23,268 nt of DNA from a virus: positions 1 to 23,268 of the IMG/VR virus record IMGVR_UViG_3300035698_030596. One strand, 5' to 3'. The notes under the pieces were generated by a model. That model saw only the letters and a program-made list of their open reading frames with translations. It was not told the DNA's origin and did not search any database. This document shows, piece by piece, positions 4,087 to 23,050 of this stretch. The stretch's first letter is position 1. Every line of letters begins with the position of its first letter. A program made the position numbers and the translations under genes.

Positions 4087-4364
4087 CTAACTTCAACGGT
4101 AACTAATAGGCCCGCATTTTCAAGTTTTTCTTTCATATCATTTAATGTATCAAGATCACCATATTTAACATCACATTCCCCTTTGAAATGTACAATATGT
4201 GCACATTGACTAGCTTGTTCAAATTGGTGTCGACAGACTTCCATTAAACATTTTATTACCCAATCAAAGGTATTGAAATCATCATTATGCATAATTAATT
4301 TATAAGGCTGTGACCTAATGGTTTTAGCTTGTGATTTTTTTTGTTTTCTAGTTATTGTTCCCAT
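4083..4364 (-). CDS. clpS: ClpS, ATP-dependent Clp protease adaptor
   Basis: A 93-residue protein that is recognisably ClpS. After a basic, flexible N-terminal tail (1-20) come strand YKLIMHNDDFNTFDW with the N-degron-binding N27, D28 and D29, helix VIKCLMEVCRH, the QASQCAHIVHFKGEC segment carrying the conserved histidine H59, and the C-terminal VKYGDLDTLNDMKEKLENAG part. The NDDxNTFD pattern and the CxHxxxQAxQCA stretch match the Bacteroidota version rather than the proteobacterial NDDYTPME version. ClpS hands proteins with N-terminal bulky hydrophobic residues to ClpAP or ClpCP. The long basic tail could reach the Clp ATPase. It follows the HAD gene by three bases and its stop overlaps the terminase stop. 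Host-derived in origin and probably used to redirect host proteolysis (inference). Confidence 0.93.
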   Translation of the reverse strand: MGTITRKQKKSQAKTIRSQPYKLIMHNDDFNTFDWVIKCLMEVCRHQFEQASQCAHIVHFKGECDVKYGDLDTLNDMKEKLENAGLLVTVEVS

Positions 4365-4367
4365 ATT

Positions 4368-4892
4368 CTATTTATTATTTACCACAATCTGTGTTTTGTT
4401 CGATTTAGTAACATCTATTATATTAATTTGTGTGCTCTGAGTTGGTGCCCATTTATTTTCCCACTCAACTAAATTTGAATGGTGATCATCATAAATAGTA
4501 AAAACCTCAGGCTTATGCTCATTTATTAGGTTTGTGAATAACCTTGTCTTAAATCTAAAGGTATTAGAATTTGGATTTAATTCTATTTGATCAAATTTTA
4601 AGCCATGAAAATCTAATATTTTATTAACTTCGTTAGTTAATTTCACCAATCTACCAGTTGCTAGAACAGTCAATGTTTCAGAATCATTAATAGACTTTAG
4701 ATATTTATTATAAACATACATATTAAGAGGTATATAAAATACATCCAAATCAAGTGATTCTGATTTAGATGCCCAGCCATTATAGGGCCAAACAATTCCT
4801 TTCGCCTTTTCCCATATTTCCTTTCCTTCATAAAAGTCAGGAGTATAGACTAAGGTCCCATCAAAATCAAATATGTCTACTCTTTTATACAT
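4368..4892 (-). CDS. HAD-superfamily phosphatase-like protein (Swiss-army-knife RNA repair-like)
   Basis: A 174-residue HAD-fold protein. The start MYKRVDIFDFDGT at 4892 puts HAD motif I in the usual position and lies four bases after a promoter-like box; longer upstream starts overlap the divergent gene's promoter. Motif I is FDFDGT (D9, D11), motif II is LATGR (T79-R81), a TFRFK segment (111-115) supplies a possible motif III lysine, and motif IV is TIYDDHHSN (D135, D136). The TFKFK-type segment followed by an acidic motif and a histidine recalls the HAD_SAK_1 family (HAD domain of Swiss-army-knife RNA-repair-like proteins). The substrate is unknown; such enzymes may act on nucleic-acid phosphate ends. 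It is co-directional with clpS, three bases apart. HAD fold secure, subfamily moderate. Confidence 0.8.
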   Translation of the reverse strand: MYKRVDIFDFDGTLVYTPDFYEGKEIWEKAKGIVWPYNGWASKSESLDLDVFYIPLNMYVYNKYLKSINDSETLTVLATGRLVKLTNEVNKILDFHGLKFDQIELNPNSNTFRFKTRLFTNLINEHKPEVFTIYDDHHSNLVEWENKWAPTQSTQINIIDVTKSNKTQIVVNNK

Positions 4893-4896
4893 GATA

Positions 4897-4906
4897 ATAT
4901 ATATTA
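4897..4906 (-). promoter_or_regulatory. Phage promoter-like box TAATATATAT
   Basis: On the minus strand CTAATATATATT lies four bases before the HAD gene start. It fits the recurrent box, though the final base is T rather than C or G. Confidence 0.4.
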
Positions 4907-4927
4907 GTGCCGAGAACGACACAATAC

Positions 4928-4936
4928 GATATATAC
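4928..4936 (+). promoter_or_regulatory. Phage promoter-like box GATATATAC
   Basis: This box lies 32 bases upstream of the coiled-coil membrane gene at 4969. Together with the minus-strand box at 4897 it makes a compact divergent promoter region. Confidence 0.5.
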
Positions 4937-4968
4937 AAAAGTAAGCATTTTTTAAAAAAATAACAACT

Positions 4969-5406
4969 ATGGGAGAAATTATAGCCGCAATATTAAAAAA
5001 ACTTGATGCAAAATCATTAATTATAATTGGACTTTTGGTGATATCCTGTGTGTTCATAGGACTTTGGGTTTTTAGTGATAACGGCTCTGCTGAAGAAAAT
5101 TCAAGACTTAAGAAAGAAAATATAGAACTTGAAGCAGATAAGAAAAGAATTCAAAAAGCTTTTGACAAAACTATGAAGCTATATGAAAAAGATTCCATTG
5201 CATTAGAAAAACAAATACTAGAATTTTCAATGTTAGAAATTGAACTTGAAAAGGAAAAAAGAGAATCTGAAGAATCTAAGAGAAAACTAAGAGAACAAAA
5301 GCTCCAATACGAATTGAGTAAGAAGAAGATTGAAGATATGAAAGAAGAGACTGTTAGAAAAGAAGGCAACTCATTATTAAAATCCGTAAAAGAAAAAGGA
5401 AAATGA
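4969..5406 (+). CDS. Inner-membrane coiled-coil protein, i-spanin-like
   Basis: A 145-residue protein with one N-terminal transmembrane helix (about 16-35, SLIIIGLLVISCVFIGLW) followed by a long, highly charged coiled coil (about 41-140) and no enzyme motif. This is the layout of Rz-type inner-membrane spanins: short cytoplasmic tail, one helix, periplasmic coiled coil. The next gene starts inside its stop codon (ATGA at 5403-5406) and encodes a secreted coiled-coil protein, which fits a two-component spanin pair acting in the last step of host lysis. No holin or endolysin is recognisable next to it, so the lysis role is inference; a structural or membrane-scaffold role is possible. Confidence is high for the gene and topology and low for the function. 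Confidence 0.45.
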   Translation: MGEIIAAILKKLDAKSLIIIGLLVISCVFIGLWVFSDNGSAEENSRLKKENIELEADKKRIQKAFDKTMKLYEKDSIALEKQILEFSMLEIELEKEKRESEESKRKLREQKLQYELSKKKIEDMKEETVRKEGNSLLKSVKEKGK

Positions 5407-6047
5407 AAAAAATCTTATTAAGTATATTATTATCAATACCATTAATGTCATTCGGACAAGCATTAGAGCCTAATGAATTTATCGGTGTTCCATTTGCCGT
5501 TACGATAGAACAACCTGTAGAACAACCAGTTAATGTTATCATTTTGGAATTTACAGAGGATATGATAAGACCACATATTGAAGATACTATTAAACAAGAA
5601 GATTTACCAATGTTCCTAACATCTTCAAAAGGAGATACAATTGGTATCATATTAACCGTTGAACAAGTACAAAACTTAGATCATAAAGCGGAAATAGGAG
5701 GACTATTAGAAAAAGCTTTAATAGAATGTGATCAACTTGATGCATTTTATATACAAGTAATCAGCGGACTTGAAAACCAAGTTATCATCTACGAAAAAGA
5801 GATAAAAAATTTAACTAACCAAGAATCGCAACGATCAGCAATGATTAAGCAATTACAAACAGGGTTAGCACAAAAACAAAGCGAGTTAGATATAAGTGAT
5901 GATCAATTATTCAACCTTGAAATCATTGTATCGAATCTTGAAAAAGACCTTAAAAAGCAAAAAGTAAAAACTATAGCAGGATCAGTAACAGGAGGAATAA
6001 TCGGTGCTATTGGTGTTGCAGTAGGTATTTTCTTCGGAACTAGGTAA
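5403..6047 (+). CDS. Secreted coiled-coil protein with C-terminal membrane segment, possible spanin partner
   Basis: A 214-residue protein with a clear Sec signal peptide (residues 1-18, ending LMSFG, with glutamine next). A glutamine after the cleavage site is typical of Bacteroidota exported proteins. The mature part has a beta-rich region (about 25-105), a coiled coil (about 115-188) and a glycine-rich hydrophobic C-terminus (about 190-212) with glycine-zipper spacing. There is no lipobox cysteine, so it is not a classical o-spanin lipoprotein; the C-terminal segment could anchor it to a membrane instead. Translation is coupled to the upstream i-spanin-like gene by ATGA. Together they could bridge the periplasm during lysis, or form an envelope-associated complex. 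The signal peptide is secure; the function is speculative. Confidence 0.45.
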   Translation: MKKILLSILLSIPLMSFGQALEPNEFIGVPFAVTIEQPVEQPVNVIILEFTEDMIRPHIEDTIKQEDLPMFLTSSKGDTIGIILTVEQVQNLDHKAEIGGLLEKALIECDQLDAFYIQVISGLENQVIIYEKEIKNLTNQESQRSAMIKQLQTGLAQKQSELDISDDQLFNLEIIVSNLEKDLKKQKVKTIAGSVTGGIIGAIGVAVGIFFGTR

Positions 6048-6066
6048 AAAATCGATTTCAGAAAGG

Positions 6067-6075
6067 AATATATAC
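6067..6075 (+). promoter_or_regulatory. Phage promoter-like box AATATATAC
   Basis: A perfect AATATATAC 25 bases upstream of the Q/A/P-repeat gene at 6101. Confidence 0.5.
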
Positions 6076-6100
6076 CTTATAAAAATATTATTTACAAAAT

Positions 6101-6736
6101 ATGAAACATATTAGAAAATTTGAAAGTCACAGAGAATATCGTCAGAAGTACGATCTTATCCAAGAACTTGTAATGCAAAAAGGGAATGACTGGACTGTTA
6201 AAGCTAATATAGATATCCCACAGTCACTTATTAACGCATACGTTAAAAAGACAAAAGAAACTACTGGAAAGGATTTGAGAAAATTCTTTGGAGATGCTGA
6301 AATTGCACAGGATATGGTAAAATTTGTTACCACTAATTTCATGGATGTTGATAATATTCATGGTGGTGCATTAACAGGAGATGAAGAAACAAGCCCACAA
6401 CTAGATGCAACAGCTCCACAAGCACAGACACAAATGGAACCAGGTATGCAGGCTCAGCCACAAATGCAGGCTCAACCAGGTATGCAGGCTCAGCCACAAA
6501 TGCAGGCTCAGCCACAAATGCAGGCTCAGCCACAAATGCAGGCTCAGCCAGGACAGGCTCAACCACAAGTACAACCACAAGCGCAAGCACAAGGAGGTAT
6601 GATGCAAGGACAACCACAAGCTCAACCACAAGTACAGGTTCAAGCTCAAGCTCAAGCACAAGATTTTGAAGATATTGAAGATGAAGAAGAACTTGATTTA
6701 TCAGATGATGAAAACACAGAAGAGCTTCCACTTTAA
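6101..6736 (+). CDS. Q/A/P-repeat protein with capsid-targeting-like N-terminus
   Basis: A 211-residue protein in three parts. Residues 1-90 are a folded-looking helical domain that begins MKHIRKFESH, the clearest example of the shared N-terminal pattern. Residues about 105-185 are low complexity, built on MQAQPQ units and ending in looser QAQPQ repeats. The last 25 residues are strongly acidic (DFEDIEDEEEL and similar). There is no membrane segment or enzyme motif. A flexible Q/A/P linker with an acidic tail would suit an internal head, scaffold-like or tail-associated protein, but I do not recognise the family. It forms a single-gene unit between its own promoter-like box and a strong terminator. 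Gene certain, function unknown. Confidence 0.8.
   Translation: MKHIRKFESHREYRQKYDLIQELVMQKGNDWTVKANIDIPQSLINAYVKKTKETTGKDLRKFFGDAEIAQDMVKFVTTNFMDVDNIHGGALTGDEETSPQLDATAPQAQTQMEPGMQAQPQMQAQPGMQAQPQMQAQPQMQAQPQMQAQPGQAQPQVQPQAQAQGGMMQGQPQAQPQVQVQAQAQAQDFEDIEDEEELDLSDDENTEELPL
6446..6553 (+). repeat. Six 18-bp tandem repeats inside a coding gene
   Basis: Six head-to-tail 18-base units (ATGCAGGCTCAGCCACAA and near-identical forms) start at 6446, 6464, 6482, 6500, 6518 and 6536. Units differ mainly in the last codon (CAA, GGT or GGA) and one synonymous CAG/CAA change. The period is a multiple of three, so gain or loss of units keeps the MQAQPQ reading frame. Such near-identical repeats are prone to slippage, so copy number may vary between isolates. 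Confidence 0.97.
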
Positions 6737-6762
6737 ATAATTAAACATAACAAAAATGAAAA

Positions 6763-6790
6763 ACAGGACTAAATTAGTCCTGTTTTTTTT
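6763..6790 (+). terminator. Rho-independent terminator
   Basis: A nine-base perfect stem (ACAGGACTA / TAGTCCTGT) with a three-base loop (AAT) is followed by an uninterrupted run of eight T. It ends the Q/A/P-repeat gene unit and comes just before the promoter-like box of the next gene. Confidence 0.93.
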
Positions 6791-6791
6791 A

Positions 6792-6801
6792 TATATAAAT
6801 A
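6792..6801 (+). promoter_or_regulatory. Promoter-like box TATATAAATA
   Basis: Contains TATAAATA, identical to the T4 late-promoter -10 consensus. It begins right after the terminator T-run and ends one base before the ATG at 6803, so the transcript would start at or within the start codon if this box is a -10. Confidence 0.5.
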
Positions 6802-6802
6802 C

Positions 6803-7420
6803 ATGGGAATATTATCATTTAATGAATACAATACGTATCAAGAAACTAATCTTTTAGTTGTTGATGTTCAGAAATCTTTTAGTGATTTTTTTACACCTCT
6901 CTATCTAAGTAAGGTACATGAATACTGTGGTGATTATACAAATGTTTATCAAATATGGGATAATCATATCGATGGTCATGGTGTAGATAAAGATTTCCTA
7001 TATGATGATAAACCAGATGTCCCTGTACACGGAGACTTATATACATTTCCTAACCAAAAATTATTAATTGAAAAAAGATATAATTATGGTGTCGATGCTG
7101 ATTTTTATAAATCAATATTAGAAGAGCGAACATACCAAGAAATAAAAGAGAAAGAGAAAGCAAGAACTCTTAAAAAAGGTGATTTATACTTAACTACTAA
7201 GGGAACTTGTATCGTATTTGTTGGAAACCATCATCAATGGTTTCATGTTGGGAGAAAAATGTTAGACTTTTTCAATTCACTAAAAGGTAAACATATAACA
7301 ATAATTGGTGGATCAGATTCGGAATGCTTGGATGATATTTATACTGCTGCTGAATCAATTGGAGTTATTATTAAAAGAGATTGGAAATATATTTACACAG
7401 CCGTAAATTGTCCTATATAA
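6803..7420 (+). CDS. Isochorismatase/nicotinamidase-like cysteine hydrolase
   Basis: A 205-residue protein with the Asp-Lys-Cys catalytic layout of the isochorismatase superfamily: D21 in LLVVDVQ, K91 in LLIEKRYNYG, and C175 in GGSDSECLDDIYTAAESIG. A D-x-H-x3-H cluster (WDNHIDGHG; D53, H55, H59) sits where nicotinamidases bind their metal, so a PncA-like activity (nicotinamide to nicotinate) is plausible. A lysine/glutamate-rich insert of about 25 residues (108-132) is not typical. The N-terminus MGILSFNEYN resembles the shared capsid-targeting-like peptide. It stands alone between two terminators, so it is transcribed separately. Superfamily fairly secure; substrate unproven, and other amidases or isochorismatase-like enzymes remain possible. 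Confidence 0.7.
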   Translation: MGILSFNEYNTYQETNLLVVDVQKSFSDFFTPLYLSKVHEYCGDYTNVYQIWDNHIDGHGVDKDFLYDDKPDVPVHGDLYTFPNQKLLIEKRYNYGVDADFYKSILEERTYQEIKEKEKARTLKKGDLYLTTKGTCIVFVGNHHQWFHVGRKMLDFFNSLKGKHITIIGGSDSECLDDIYTAAESIGVIIKRDWKYIYTAVNCPI

Positions 7421-17625: not shown

Positions 17626-17898
17626 TTATCTATATTTTATTACACCACCAATATTATTTGTAGTTGGTGCATTAAGACTCTTAGCTTGACCAAATAAAAA
17701 TTCAGTATATCTTTGAATTTGGTCTGGATGTTTAGTGAAATATTTTACTAAAGTATTTCTTTTTTCATCATCACTCATTTCATCCTGGTCATCCAAATTA
17801 TATAATTGAAATAATCTTAATAAGTTATTATCAACAAATCCTTCAGCATCTAATTGTGTTTTAGGATTATATCCTTCATAATCTTCAATGTATTCCAT
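17626..17898 (-). CDS. Small acidic unknown protein
   Basis: A 90-residue acidic, helical protein with no recognised motif. It begins MEYIEDYEGYNPKTQ and contains an Asp-rich turn (LDDQDEMSDDEKRN) followed by a helix-rich C-terminal part. Its ATG overlaps the stop of the upstream ART-like gene by one base (TAATG), so the two are coupled. By analogy with enzyme/partner pairs it might be an immunity, chaperone or regulator protein for the ART candidate, but that is only a positional guess. Confidence 0.65.
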   Translation of the reverse strand: MEYIEDYEGYNPKTQLDAEGFVDNNLLRLFQLYNLDDQDEMSDDEKRNTLVKYFTKHPDQIQRYTEFLFGQAKSLNAPTTNNIGGVIKYR

Positions 17899-18332
17899 TA
17901 TTGTTGTGATACTATTTTAGCCTCGGTTGTTGTATAAACCCATAATGGATCATTAACCACACTATTAGGCTCACCTTTCCAAAAGTTTTCTGCCATTAAT
18001 TTAATCTTATGCTCATCTTGAACTTCTTTAATGCTTGTTACCCATGATAAATCATGTTTATTGACTTCAGAAGTAGGTTCAACCGTATACAAATTATCGG
18101 TATTTCCACCAGCTTCGGATATTTTATCAGGATCATCACACATAAATAATGCTTCTCTATGTGATAATTTATTTTCAGGTCTATATTTTTCAACTATAGA
18201 AAAAGAATTTTCTTGTTCTTGATTATATCTATCACCACCTTTTAGTGTTTCACCTATTGGAAGTTCAATTCTACTACCATGATAGTATACTCTATCCGAG
18301 CTTTCAAAGTATTTGTGGAATTTTTTTATCAT
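17898..18332 (-). CDS. Putative ADP-ribosyltransferase (Arr-like) with capsid-targeting-like N-terminus
   Basis: A 144-residue protein. After the tag-like start MIKKFHKYFESS, residues 16-33 read YYHGSRIELPIGETLKGG, which matches the N-terminal motif of rifampin ADP-ribosyltransferases (YHGT...L..G..L.PG; H18 is the NAD-binding histidine). A central segment EALFMCDDPDKISEAGG (60-76) sits where Arr has its second strand and helix. LYTVEPTSEVNKHD (81-94) parallels the Arr VEP-x-G motif before its aspartate, FWKGEPNS (117-124) parallels its FPGNPTKSY segment, and PLWVYTTTEAKIV resembles its final strand. The length equals Arr (about 140). The family transfers ADP-ribose from NAD. A classical catalytic tyrosine is not obvious. 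T4 packages the ART Alt; a similar role is inference. The gene is coupled to the next one by TAATG. Confidence 0.5.
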   Translation of the reverse strand: MIKKFHKYFESSDRVYYHGSRIELPIGETLKGGDRYNQEQENSFSIVEKYRPENKLSHREALFMCDDPDKISEAGGNTDNLYTVEPTSEVNKHDLSWVTSIKEVQDEHKIKLMAENFWKGEPNSVVNDPLWVYTTTEAKIVSQQ

Positions 18333-18335
18333 AAA

Positions 18336-18346
18336 CTATATATTAA
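18336..18346 (-). promoter_or_regulatory. Phage promoter-like box TTAATATATAG
   Basis: On the minus strand TTAATATATAG ends three bases before the ART-like gene's ATG. Confidence 0.5.
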
Positions 18347-18389
18347 AAACAACTTTTTTAAAAAAGTATCTATAAATACAGTTTGTCTT

Positions 18390-18420
18390 TTTGGCAACTG
18401 TAAAAAAATAACTATATTTG
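18390..18420 (+). promoter_or_regulatory. Bacteroidota-type promoter (TTTG-N19-TAnnTTTG)
   Basis: TTTG at 18390-18393 and TATATTTG at 18413-18420 are 19 bases apart, matching the host primary-sigma consensus of Bacteroidota (-33 TTTG, -7 TAnnTTTG). The metallophosphoesterase ATG follows six bases later. A TATAAATA at 18371 is also present. This is the only exact host-type promoter that I noticed in the window, so the gene may be expressed early by host polymerase. Confidence 0.55.
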
Positions 18421-18425
18421 TAATA

Positions 18426-19040
18426 ATGATTTTAAGAGACAAAATACAAACAGACAAAGACCAAGAGGTATACTTCGCATCGGACTATCACTTTTGGCAC
18501 AAAAATGTTATCCGTTTTGACGGACGACCTTACGATAATGTCGTAGACATGAATGAAGAATTAATTGTTAAATGGAATAACAAAGTTAGTCCAGATGATA
18601 AAGTTTATTATTTAGGTGATATGGCTTTCGCCAGTAAAAACAAAACTCACGATTTAGTTTGGAGATTAAATGGTAAAATAACAATGATTATGGGTAACCA
18701 TGATCGTTATCAAACTATTGAACGAACAAAGAGATTTGACGGAATTTATGATTATGGAGAACTTTGGGTAACTGATGGCTCAGAATCACTTTCTGGAAAA
18801 TCACAAACACAACACATCTGTATGAGCCACTACCCTTTTATGGTTTGGAATGGACATCACAGAGGAAGTTGGATGTTACACGGACACTGCCATAACAGTT
18901 TGCGAAAAAACCAACCTGAATTCTACAACCGAAAAATTGAAGATATGGGATTGAACCACTGGAACTATGAACCAGTTTCTTACCAAGAACTGAAAGAAGT
19001 TATGGATAAGAAAATAATAGCAACAGTTGACCATCACTAA
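18426..19040 (+). CDS. Calcineurin-like metallophosphoesterase
   Basis: A 204-residue enzyme with every metal-binding block of the calcineurin-like phosphoesterase fold: D20-x-H22 in ASDYHFWH, G64-D65 in YYLGDM, G90-N91-H92-D93 in MGNHDR, H135 in MSHYPF, and G153-H154-x-H156 in LHGHCH. These coordinate two metals that hydrolyse phosphomonoesters or diesters; small phage relatives of this size act on unknown substrates. The start MILRDKIQTD is preferred because earlier in-frame ATGs lie in the intergenic and antisense region and would cover the promoter. The ATG is six bases after a host-type -7 box. The stop overlaps the next ATG (TAATG). Fold certain, substrate unknown; nucleotides or RNA ends are possible. 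Confidence 0.93.
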   Translation: MILRDKIQTDKDQEVYFASDYHFWHKNVIRFDGRPYDNVVDMNEELIVKWNNKVSPDDKVYYLGDMAFASKNKTHDLVWRLNGKITMIMGNHDRYQTIERTKRFDGIYDYGELWVTDGSESLSGKSQTQHICMSHYPFMVWNGHHRGSWMLHGHCHNSLRKNQPEFYNRKIEDMGLNHWNYEPVSYQELKEVMDKKIIATVDHH

Positions 19041-19446: not shown

Positions 19447-19974
19447 ATGAAATGTAAAAAACCATCAAAAATGGCAAAAGAAAAACAAACAATAGAATTT
19501 TACTACGGGAGAAGGTGGTTTGATATACGATTATCAGTATCATCAAACGCATATCATCTTCATTTTAGCACTATTCAAGAAGCAAATGACTTTTATGATC
19601 ATTATGATAAAACAACAGATAGAACATATCTTTTAAAAAATGTCTATCTTGATGGAGAACAGTATAATACAGGCATTGTTCCTGATACTCATGATGCTGT
19701 TACTTTTAAATATTGGGGAAATCAGTACCATGACATCGAAGCGGATAAAAAAAACAAAGTATATCGTGGCAAACCTCGTAACCGTGAAGAAATACTAAAA
19801 GACCGTGAATTATATAAACAATTAAATGGTAAAACTATCATAGTTAAAACAGATAAAGGCAGAGGCGGTGGTTTTAGTAATGGTAAAAATTGGGGAAACC
19901 CTGATTGGCGAGAAGTTAAATCACTTGTCTTACGAACAATTCGAAATGATAATTTGGATAAGCTATTAGATTAG
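19447..19974 (+). CDS. Unknown phage protein
   Basis: A 175-residue protein (or 167 if translation begins at the in-frame ATG 19471, MAKEKQTIEF). It is rich in aromatic residues and charged, with beta-like segments (IEFYYGRRWFDIRLSV, YLLKNVYLDGEQYNT) and a lysine/arginine/glycine loop (KTDKGRGGGFSNGKNWGN) near the C-terminus. I do not recognise a family. TAATATATGG at 19421 could be a degenerate promoter box; otherwise the gene follows the metallophosphoesterase unit by 23 bases. Its TAG shares bases with the stop of the convergent gene. Confidence 0.7.
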   Translation: MKCKKPSKMAKEKQTIEFYYGRRWFDIRLSVSSNAYHLHFSTIQEANDFYDHYDKTTDRTYLLKNVYLDGEQYNTGIVPDTHDAVTFKYWGNQYHDIEADKKNKVYRGKPRNREEILKDRELYKQLNGKTIIVKTDKGRGGGFSNGKNWGNPDWREVKSLVLRTIRNDNLDKLLD

Positions 19975-20699
19975 TGTTCAGACTTACCACCCCAATCATA
20001 TTCTACAATTAAGTGACCATTAGAGGTCAAAGTGTGTTTTTCCTTATCAACACTTAATATACCACAAACAGCTTCGCTTACTTTTGTAGCACTTAATTGC
20101 TTTTCTAAAACTTGGTTGAACTTTTCTTCATCGATAAAGTCCTTTACTTCGATTTTAATACCAATATCCATAACTTCCATTGTTTCATTAACAAGTTTCG
20201 TGTATGAATAATCAATCAAGTTAGATTTAACTTTTTCAAGCTCATCTTTTGTATAAATAACGACTTTTGTATCATATTTATTCCCATTAACAGAGAAATG
20301 ATGCTTTTCAGAGTTTTTAATATCTACATGACCTAATGATGTATCATAATGGTCAGCAATAATTTTTTCATGCTCGACAGTCGCCTTATCGATTCCCCGA
20401 TATAAACACTCTTGTATTTTCTGAACACGATATGAATCAGATTCTAATACTGAGAAACCCTCAAATGTAAGAACACCATCTTCTGCCATTGATTTTCTAT
20501 CACCTATAACATCATTAATAACTTTTTCAATTCGGTTAATACCATCAAGCCCATTTCTTTCTAGAAATGATATAAGCCTAGTATTATTCTTAAAATACTT
20601 ATCTAGCCTTTTTGGATTAATTTTCCATTTTTCAACATATTCATCGATATATTCATTAACTAATTTATAATATCTGTTCAGTTCTTCTGAATTTCCCAT
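19971..20699 (-). CDS. Unknown phage protein
   Basis: A 242-residue soluble protein with no motif that I recognise. The first 75 residues are helical and charged (MGNSEELNRYYKLVNEYIDEY...). The middle holds beta segments with several histidines (HYDTSLGHVDIKNSEKHHFSV, about 117-137), which might bind metal. The C-terminal half is alpha/beta and ends in a Trp-Gly-Gly turn. The start MGNSEELNRY does not fit the shared N-terminal tag. An AAATATATAG box ends three bases before the start. Stop bases are shared with the convergent 19447-19974 gene. Gene secure, function unknown. Confidence 0.75.
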   Translation of the reverse strand: MGNSEELNRYYKLVNEYIDEYVEKWKINPKRLDKYFKNNTRLISFLERNGLDGINRIEKVINDVIGDRKSMAEDGVLTFEGFSVLESDSYRVQKIQECLYRGIDKATVEHEKIIADHYDTSLGHVDIKNSEKHHFSVNGNKYDTKVVIYTKDELEKVKSNLIDYSYTKLVNETMEVMDIGIKIEVKDFIDEEKFNQVLEKQLSATKVSEAVCGILSVDKEKHTLTSNGHLIVEYDWGGKSEH

Positions 20700-20713: not shown

Positions 20714-20737
20714 TCATTGAGATTGGATATTCGCCTC

Positions 20738-20746
20738 TTAATATAT
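20738..20746 (+). promoter_or_regulatory. Phage promoter-like box TTAATATAT
   Basis: TTAATATAT runs directly into the ATG at 20747, so the box and the start codon overlap or touch. A more upstream promoter is not obvious. Confidence 0.35.
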
Positions 20747-21676
20747 ATGTTAGAAAAATATCAAAAATTTGTGAATTTAAGAGAATCTAAAGCATATTTC
20801 AATCGGAAACCAGTAGAATACATATTAAAAGAATCATATGATGATTTAAGAGAGGATCATGAGTTTATTCCAAGATTTTCATTGAAAAATATACGTGATT
20901 TCCAAAATATACCGATTAATGAACCGATTAAATATGACCAGAACATAATGATTAAAGCAATCAAGTATGGAATGATATTCTTAATCAACTATAAAGGAGA
21001 AAAAGATAAGCATTTTGCAGGTCATGAGCGTGTAATATACCCAATGGTGCTTGGACGTTCATCTAAAGGTAAAATACTTGTTAGAGGATGGCACTTGAAC
21101 GGATGGTCTGTATCAACAAATAGACATATTAATAAAATATGGAGAATGTTCAGGGCAGATAGAATTTTATCAATGACATTTACTGGTTCTTTTTATAGGT
21201 TAGCACCAAATGGTTATAATATGTATGATAAAGGTATGAGAGGTGGAATAATCGCTCGTGCAGATTTTAATGCTATTAGAAGAAACCAACAAACACTAGT
21301 TAAAGCACAAGCAATTCAAAATAAGGATGAAGTTTCACTAGAAAATGAAAATTCAAAATTTGCTACAATTAAAGTCAAACCAACAGATACTAAATTCGAC
21401 TTAGATAACCTTGAAGAGAATTCATATTTTAATAATATCAAAGATACTGAGGGAGTTCGTATATCATTCTTAAAAAGTATTTATGGAAATGAATATTTAT
21501 GCATTTTAGGAGCTATTGGCAGACCAGGAAATACAGTTAAAATACTAACTGACACAGGTCGTAATATTGGTGTTTATAAAGTTCTTGATTCAACAACTGG
21601 AGATGTGCTTAAAAATATTAAGAATGTAAAGGGTAATAAAATATATGATCTCTACATTTTTGATAAGAAATTATAA
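20747..21676 (+). CDS. WYL-like domain protein with capsid-targeting-like N-terminus
   Basis: A 309-residue protein. The start at 20747 gives MLEKYQKFVNLRES, a looser fit to the shared N-terminal pattern; an in-frame ATG at 20717 would place a promoter-like box inside the gene. Residues about 68-150 resemble a WYL domain: a hydrophobic strand IFLINYKG, then GHERVIYPMVLGRSSKGKILVRGWH with the conserved R-x-I-x-P-x-x-L-G pattern, and IWRMFRADRIL matching the conserved ending of that fold. WYL domains bind nucleic acids or nucleotide ligands and regulate bacterial transcription and defence. A separate C-terminal beta domain (about 205-309) is not recognised. No helix-turn-helix is present. The domain call is by motif resemblance only. 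Confidence 0.5.
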   Translation: MLEKYQKFVNLRESKAYFNRKPVEYILKESYDDLREDHEFIPRFSLKNIRDFQNIPINEPIKYDQNIMIKAIKYGMIFLINYKGEKDKHFAGHERVIYPMVLGRSSKGKILVRGWHLNGWSVSTNRHINKIWRMFRADRILSMTFTGSFYRLAPNGYNMYDKGMRGGIIARADFNAIRRNQQTLVKAQAIQNKDEVSLENENSKFATIKVKPTDTKFDLDNLEENSYFNNIKDTEGVRISFLKSIYGNEYLCILGAIGRPGNTVKILTDTGRNIGVYKVLDSTTGDVLKNIKNVKGNKIYDLYIFDKKL

Positions 21677-21686: not shown

Positions 21687-21965
21687 ATGTTAAGAACATT
21701 TGAAGAATATACAGGAAAATCACCACTAGTTTTGCTAATAGATGATGAAGGGAATGAGTTAATGATTCCTGGTAATTATGAAGAAGGTGTTGGAATTTTT
21801 GATACTGAAGGAAATGAATATCCAGCAGGTGTTATGAGAGATGGAAGCGTTGTAGTTGCAAAAGCCGAAGGAAATTCTGCATTAAAATTATCAGGTGAAA
21901 CACCAGTTGATGGATTAAAAAATTGCTTACAAGACGGGTTTAATTACTTTGAAGGAAACGAATAA
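21687..21965 (+). CDS. Small beta-rich unknown protein with capsid-targeting-like N-terminus
   Basis: A 92-residue acidic protein that begins MLRTFEEYTGKSP, fitting the shared N-terminal pattern. The remainder reads as short strands with Gly/Asp turns (LVLLIDDEGNELMIPGNYEEG, GIFDTEGNEYPAGV, GSVVVAKAEGNS), suggesting a small beta barrel or sandwich. No enzyme motif. It starts 10 bases after the WYL-like gene and ends two bases before the PPK2 start, so the three form one unit. Function unknown; a packaged partner of its neighbours is possible but unsupported. Confidence 0.72.
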   Translation: MLRTFEEYTGKSPLVLLIDDEGNELMIPGNYEEGVGIFDTEGNEYPAGVMRDGSVVVAKAEGNSALKLSGETPVDGLKNCLQDGFNYFEGNE

Positions 21966-21967
21966 TT

Positions 21968-23050
21968 ATGGATATAAATATTATAATAAACGAGTTAGAT
22001 GAACTAAGAGATTATCTTTTGGATAATATCCAATATGATTCAGGATCTAATCAATTAATAATAGAAGAAGGTTTTAAACTTAATACTAAAGAATATCTTA
22101 CTAAGATTAGTAATGCGATTGGTGAAGATGTTGCCAAAAAACTTAATATCAGAGCATTACTTAGAAAACTTAACCAAGTTATTGTTCTCAAGAAAAGAAG
22201 CACACGTAGAGTAATACGAGAAACTCTTCAAAGTTACACAGACACATTAGGAGAAAGAATTACAAAAATTAATCAAAAGCATCCAGCCGAAGATTATCTT
22301 GATAGAGTTGATGGTGAAGAATCTATTTTACCACGTAGAAAATATGAAGATGAAAAATTCAAAATTCAAATTGAACTATTAAAACTACAAGAATGGGTAG
22401 TTGCTACTAAACAAAAAGTAGTAATTGTATTTGAAGGAAGAGATGCAGCAGGAAAAGGATCAACTATTAAAAGATTTGTTGAATATTTAAACCCTGCACA
22501 TTTTAGAGTTGTTGCATTAGGAATTCCAACAGAAGATGAAAAGAATAACTGGTTTGGTAGATATGAAAGACACCTCCCAAGCGAAGGAGAAATTGTTTTC
22601 TTTGATAGGTCTTGGTATAATAGAGCGGTTGTAGAACCAGCAATGGGATATTGTTCTGAAAAACACTATGAGCATTTTATGAAAAATGTTACAAAATGGG
22701 AAGAATCATTACAAGGAAAAGGATTTAGCGTATTTAAATTGTGGTTTTCCATATCTAAAGAAAAACAAAACGATAGATTTAATAGAAGATTAGCACATCC
22801 ATTAAAATATTGGAAATATTCACCTAATGATGCTAAAGCATTAGATGCCTTTGAAAGAATTGGACAATTAAAGAATAGAATGTTTACAGAAACATCAAAT
22901 GCTAATGTCCCATGGGTCATAATTAATTCAGAAGATAAAAAAGTTGCTAGATTAAATGCTATGCGATACATACTTGATTCAATCGATTATGAAGGGAAAG
23001 ATTCTAAATATACTAAATGGTATCCTGAAGTTGTTAATAAGCTAGATTAA
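21968..23050 (+). CDS. ppk2: Polyphosphate kinase 2 (PPK2 family)
   Basis: A 360-residue protein. The C-terminal two thirds are PPK2: Walker A GRDAAGKGS (157-165), Walker B FFDRSWYNR (211-219), and lid-region residues RFNRRLAHPLKYWKYSPND (270-288), with family-typical PWVIINSEDKKVARLN (315-330). PPK2 enzymes phosphorylate nucleotides with inorganic polyphosphate or the reverse; single-domain members of this type usually make ADP or ATP (or GTP) from polyphosphate. Residues 1-120 form a helical N-terminal extension that I do not recognise and that is longer than in typical single-domain enzymes. It starts two bases after the preceding gene, in the same unit. Catalytic motifs are intact. Nucleotide preference cannot be read from the sequence. 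Confidence 0.95.
   Translation: MDINIIINELDELRDYLLDNIQYDSGSNQLIIEEGFKLNTKEYLTKISNAIGEDVAKKLNIRALLRKLNQVIVLKKRSTRRVIRETLQSYTDTLGERITKINQKHPAEDYLDRVDGEESILPRRKYEDEKFKIQIELLKLQEWVVATKQKVVIVFEGRDAAGKGSTIKRFVEYLNPAHFRVVALGIPTEDEKNNWFGRYERHLPSEGEIVFFDRSWYNRAVVEPAMGYCSEKHYEHFMKNVTKWEESLQGKGFSVFKLWFSISKEKQNDRFNRRLAHPLKYWKYSPNDAKALDAFERIGQLKNRMFTETSNANVPWVIINSEDKKVARLNAMRYILDSIDYEGKDSKYTKWYPEVVNKLD

Follow-up and report, generated by a model that had tools for sequence, protein, structure and literature searches.

A phage-specific lineage of class I-type polyphosphate kinase 2 in huge phages with an uncharacterised N-terminal domain

Polyphosphate kinases of the PPK2 family are recognized by a catalytic criterion, the Asp/Lys pair of Walker A together with the Asp-Arg pair of Walker B (PMC4748334), and are sorted into classes by the residue after Walker B, with Asn denoting class I, Gly class II and Glu class III (PMC8776046). 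Class I enzymes phosphorylate nucleoside diphosphates and most favor formation of nucleoside triphosphates (NTPs), although these class rules are preferences: PPK2 can work in the direction of polyphosphate synthesis as well, and the class I enzyme of C. glutamicum prefers synthesis (PMC8776046). Structures with which a new member can be compared include those of F. tularensis PPK2 (FtPPK2; 4YEG, 5LL0, 5LLB, 5LLF) and S. meliloti SMc02148 (3CZQ, 6DZG). Among phages, complete genomes of 634, 636, 642 and 735 kb were described by Al-Shayeb et al. in the Mahaphage clade, the largest of which are predicted to have Bacteroidetes hosts (PMC7162821). Polyphosphate is not mentioned in that paper, and a full-text literature search for phage polyphosphate kinase, with subscription journals and bioRxiv mostly outside its coverage, found no report. 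Phage T4 provides a further point of comparison, as it loads proteins into its head via capsid-targeting sequences (PMC3012670, PMC5694885); by annotation, the mature form of a T4 internal protein lacks its leader, MKTYQEFIAE. The enzyme family described here is known; its phage-specific variant, which carries an uncharacterised N-terminal domain, is new.

The DNA analyzed (the window) is the 23,268-base virus record IMGVR_UViG_3300035698_030596 from IMG/VR. Its terminase has 52% identity, over 97-99%, to the terminases of the Mahaphages LR756502 (642 kb) and LR745206 (634 kb). The gene at 20717-21676 (+), which encodes 319 aa of unassigned function, is 72% and 70% identical to genes that lie beside PPK2 in the 634 and 642 kb phages respectively. 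A second PPK2 neighbor, at 19971-20699 (-), encodes 242 aa, also of unassigned function, and is assigned by synteny. Each of these two families is found near PPK2 in 22 of 24 loci of the viral clade to which the window belongs (clade A, below), and neighbor genes of the window PPK2 recur in both LR745206 and LR756502. Because the terminase and neighboring genes match the 634-642 kb Mahaphages, and the PPK2 groups with viral PPK2s, we identify the window from its gene content as a fragment of a giant bacteria-infecting virus, and hence as phage DNA rather than contamination. Directly upstream of PPK2, a 92-aa ORF (21687-21965, +) ends 2 bases before the PPK2 start.

The PPK2 gene (21968-23050, +) starts with ATG, is free of internal stops and encodes 360 aa, which Pfam, NCBIfam and the tree together place as class I-type PPK2 of a phage-specific lineage. 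Its catalytic domain (residues 123-345; 22334-23002, +), also recovered by Foldseek, matches Pfam PPK2 at 263.1 bits against a cut-off of 22.3 (E 2.7e-78), and the P. aeruginosa-type PPK2 equivalog of NCBIfam (PPK2_P_aer, TIGR03707) is matched at 304.2 bits against a curated cut-off of 301.8. Walker A reads GRDAAGKG (residues 157-164; 22436-22459, +), in which D159 and K163 correspond to FtPPK2 D62 and K66. Walker B and the class signature read DRSWYN (22604-22621, +), with the core DRS at residues 213-215 and N218 of the class I type. The lid motif RFNRR (22775-22789, +) carries the polyphosphate-contacting arginines R270 and R274, the equivalents of FtPPK2 R174 and R178. Mapped onto FtPPK2, all ten of D62, K66, D117, R118, R174, R178, K184, K228, K229 and R232 are kept, as D159, K163, D213, R214, R270, R274, K280, K324, K325 and R328; the sole change among the residues mapped is at the polyphosphate contact His76, which is Tyr173 in the window. 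The original prediction that the PPK2 motifs are intact is thus borne out.

An AF2 model of the protein (pLDDT 91.2) has as its closest structures in Foldseek the class I F. tularensis PPK2 with polyphosphate, at 51% identity, a TM-score of 0.95 on the target and an rmsd of 1.3. The window enzyme shares with FtPPK2 and SMc02148 the fold, Walker A and B, the class I Asn, the lid and most polyphosphate contacts, and its domain is about 50% identical to that of FtPPK2. It differs from FtPPK2 by an additional N-terminal domain of ~120 residues, by Tyr in place of His76 and by its position on a separate viral branch. Across 35 viral homologues the catalytic residues do not vary, a pattern that speaks for selection on activity. 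The window PPK2 itself forms a long branch in trees (0.56-0.64), and this copy may therefore be drifting despite its intact motifs.

The N-terminal domain (residues 1-122; 21968-22333, +) is modeled with a pLDDT of about 80-95 in the context of the whole protein and of 84.5 alone, with low values at residues 106-114. AF2 predicts helices at residues 3-19, 40-51, 53-58, 61-74, 79-92 and 94-101, and a short beta-hairpin at 21-32. Alignment of profiles by hhalign shows the domain to be common to both viral clades, A and B (E 1e-9 over 101 columns). Against the extensions of bacterial PPK2s, only the last 18 columns align, and these are the start of the PPK2 domain; a bacterial origin of the N-terminal domain was rejected on this ground. 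The original prediction held that the first 120 residues are unlike ordinary single-domain PPK2 and proposed searching them alone. That search, against Pfam, PHROGs, PDB sequences and PDB folds, returned no convincing match, and in sequence the extension does stand apart; having an extension does not set it apart, as bacterial class I PPK2s commonly have one of like length, unrelated in sequence to the viral one. The best Foldseek match to PDB folds has an E of 1.6, and the best VIA-align match, a helical bundle at Z 6.6, lies in the chance range for such bundles. A PDB profile search gave weak hits only, the best being a designed protein, and a match to UTP20 was discarded (E 0.005, below the cut-off and in one member only). 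The most obvious conserved feature of the domain is a basic stretch near residues 74-85, which reads LKKRSTRRVIR in the window, LKKRNTK in many clade A relatives and LLKKGDKKK in clade B. We infer for the domain a probable role in positioning, regulating or docking the enzyme, and the basic stretch could help to hold polyphosphate or nucleic acid.

One scan of IMG/VR found relatives of the window PPK2 on 294 viral contigs; the best 80 of these were read, giving 66 distinct proteins together with earlier loci. They form two clades, A (the megaphage type, including the window) and B. Of the four largest complete phage genomes, three carry the gene (the records of 634, 642 and 735 kb), and in the 636 kb record it was not found. 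The PPK2s of LR745206 (634 kb), LR756502 (642 kb) and LR756501 (735 kb) share the N-terminal domain and have 42-59% identity to the window protein over 87-98%. The view of PPK2 as an unusual phage gene, part of the original prediction, therefore gives way to one in which it is common in huge phages. Such a phage-specific branch, present in these genomes and in hundreds of contigs, suggests that huge phages draw on host polyphosphate for energy as a lasting strategy and not through an accident of gene capture.

The PPK2-domain tree splits 65 viral rows, the window among them, from 77 bacterial rows by a branch with starred support (99*), with three long-branched bacterial rows (SAR86 and similar) also on the viral side. 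When long or doubtful rows are left out, the remaining 40 viral rows lie together on one side of a branch whose support (70) is unstarred. On these trees a single origin of the viral PPK2s is likely, not proven. Two records from phage collections, Moraxella phage Mcat6 and MT835589, fall among the bacteria; the MT835589 PPK2 groups with Brachybacterium, and mis-assembly, host DNA or a separate capture are possible.

Some loci of the collection have further features. One relative (locus L002, 5503-7107) is a kinase-phosphatase fusion, in which PPK2 is followed at the C-terminus by a HAD domain of the 'Swiss Army Knife RNA repair' type (PF18143). The same locus has a calcineurin-like phosphoesterase, and one is also encoded in the window (PHROG 547; 18279-19040, +), with relatives near PPK2 in 7 clade A loci; these genes raise the question of whether polyphosphate may be their substrate.

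Two alternative readings concern what the gene is and where it came from. In PHROGs, a 'thymidylate kinase' family is the sole match (E 2e-5). Among viral models the closest, BFVD A0A8D9CF65 of an uncultured marine phage, with 40% identity over nearly its whole length, bears the name 'Thymidylate kinase' and not that of PPK2. A thymidylate-kinase-like nucleotide kinase misread as PPK2 is nevertheless highly improbable, since the NCBIfam dTMP kinase model scores 16.4 bits against a cut-off of 83.25, while the PPK2 model is passed, and the residues of the polyphosphate channel are conserved. Still harder to credit is that the gene is host contamination or a bacterial PPK2 acquired recently; recent host contamination is the outcome that the original prediction had named as counting against it. 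Nothing in the window points this way, although the Mcat6 and MT835589 records illustrate that PPK2s filed under phages can group among bacteria. The phylogeny set out above separates the window and its relatives from bacteria, with the qualifications of the three bacterial rows on the viral side and the support of 70 in the reduced set; the neighbors are conserved phage genes with megaphage orthologues, and the N-terminal domain is common to the viral PPK2s. On present data, this phylogeny and gene neighborhood exclude a recent capture of the window gene from a host.

The best explanation, to which we assign a probability of about 0.7, is that the product of the gene is a catalytically competent class I PPK2, belonging to a phage-specific lineage, that would make NTPs from host polyphosphate. 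Conserved residues and the class signature are what point to NTP production. In the proposed mechanism, the phage would infect a Bacteroidetes-type host, where PPK2 would phosphorylate ADP and GDP at the expense of host polyphosphate, and the resulting NTPs would be independent of host energy metabolism, a private supply for a very large genome. Weighing against this reading are the ability of PPK2s to run in the other direction, the class rules being preferences, and the particulars of the window copy, with its long branch and the replacement of a contact His by Tyr. An enzyme used mainly for polyphosphate synthesis, the product serving, for instance, as a counter-ion or stress signal, has the precedent of class I PPK2s that prefer synthesis, such as that of C. 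glutamicum; given that most class I enzymes favor NTP formation and that a phage need for polyphosphate is not evident, we consider it very unlikely.

The gene neighborhood bears on a further reading. In 9 clade A loci (L004, at 4357-6816 on the minus strand, L008, L012, L013, L019, L020, L026, L031 and L044), genes for NAMPT and an NMN adenylyltransferase-Nudix protein lie a few genes from PPK2, which suggests an NAD-rebuilding module beside the polyphosphate kinase in these loci. NAMPT and NMN adenylyltransferase are the gene pair of the phage NAD-rebuilding pathway NARP2. A phage NAD-rebuilding pathway, NARP1, has been described (PMC12774641). NAD-synthesis genes near PPK2 fit a role in nucleotide economy, and a counter-defence role is possible: the main use of the enzyme could be to restore ATP and GTP, or to strip polyphosphate that triggers stress responses of the host, against a nucleotide-depleting host defence. 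That T4 internal proteins are counter-defence proteins is in keeping with such a use. The argument is nevertheless one from neighborhood, and such NAD genes are ordinary in large phages too, so that we regard counter-defence as the main use as unlikely.

Compatible with NTP production by a phage class I PPK2 is a variant in which, in many of these phages, the enzyme is packaged in the head and ejected. A leader would direct PPK2 into the prohead, a protease of the T4 gp21 type would cut after (I/L)xE, and the enzyme would arrive in the cell along with the DNA, so that NTPs are supplied ahead of all phage gene expression. We consider this variant possible, with the odds somewhat against it. Most clade A relatives, the Mahaphage PPK2s among them, have ~30-40 extra N-terminal residues bearing a leader, for example MLKRFSNFIREEL, MINNFIKFINEE and MVTKFLKFVVES. 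The leader pattern, which was chosen after examples had been seen, is matched by 20 of 26 clade A PPK2s, and several others are close. These leaders have the same layout as T4 MKTYQEFIAE, including the (I/L)xE end, and like it recur on unrelated proteins. Unlike the T4 internal head proteins, the cargo here is a metabolic enzyme, its packaging and cleavage are putative, and the window copy is without the leader: the window PPK2 starts MDINIIINELDEL, with no match to the pattern and no targeting leader ending in (I/L)xE. The window phage may have lost the leader, or expression of its PPK2 may be confined to the cell.

The leader is not confined to PPK2. In a 436 kb relative, the pattern occurs at the start of 53 of 504 genes versus 29 of 1481 internal Met positions (p 2e-14), and shuffled N-termini give a mean of 14 and a maximum of 25. 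The bodies of the 53 proteins are unrelated except for one trio, and 38 leader-bearing proteins of this genome have no Pfam or PHROGs family in common. Among strict FxxFxxE leaders, 15 of 21 have I or L before xE, as in the T4 protease rule, a position that was not part of the search pattern. The leader is also specific to families, being present in 18/24 PPK2s and in four further families at at least 60%, and in 0/8 NAMPT, 0/8 NMN adenylyltransferase, 0/7 UvsX-like recombinase, and no members of the 242-aa neighbor family or clamp genes. A general gene-start or translation feature was rejected as its explanation because several conserved families of the same loci lack it. Additionally, a T4-type major capsid protein (Gp23) was found in all 9 PPK2 contigs tested. 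Peptidase_S77 matches occur in 9 of 14 (E<=0.001), of which 3 are above the curated cut-off, with the megaphages' own matches below it. In another branch, PPK2 is embedded in multidomain proteins of 1116-2377 aa, one of which also has a peptidoglycan-binding domain, and INEG/LNE-like stretches occur both before and after PPK2 in these giant proteins. Evidence for the leader in clade B is weak: beyond PPK2, a slight enrichment (16/929 versus 7/2588 at score >4) led us to set aside a general leader in those genomes.

We found no virion proteomics of these phages, and on the sequence patterns above we treat packaging of PPK2 in the virion as a serious hypothesis, not a result. In its fullest form, which we put forward tentatively and hold to be somewhat doubtful, huge phages with T4-type heads would load PPK2 by its leader and eject it with the genome, giving immediate ATP and GTP from host polyphosphate ahead of transcription, possibly against nucleotide-depleting defences, and each genome would place the same leader on dozens of other, unrelated proteins that are likewise ejected. 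Should the leader prove to act in capsid targeting, one could read from sequence which proteins these uncultured phages eject, and a large part of their unannotated genes would become open to prediction.

Several further observations concern possible targeting or processing signals. The giant proteins with a central PPK2 (L041, 5158-12291; L049, 5158-10164; L054, 5164-8514) have INEGFF or LNE-like stretches between modules and are possibly polyproteins cut by a head protease; the peptidoglycan-binding domain is that of L041. Clade B loci and L198-L212 have recurrent N-termini, such as MK.IKLTE.DL.RIVKRVL.E and LLxEIxRI..MG..LNE, on several proteins, with weaker statistics than in clade A. In the window, the N-terminus of the 92-aa ORF upstream of PPK2, MLRTFEEY, resembles the leader only loosely. 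Leader-like starts are seen on four unrelated window genes, namely 94-510 (-, MKYIKLFNEN), 507-1100 (-, MFSYAEFILEKF; a Toprim-type protein by our reading), 6803-7420 (+, MGILSFNEYN) and 17898-18332 (-, MIKKFHKYFESS), whose products are candidate capsid-targeted proteins.
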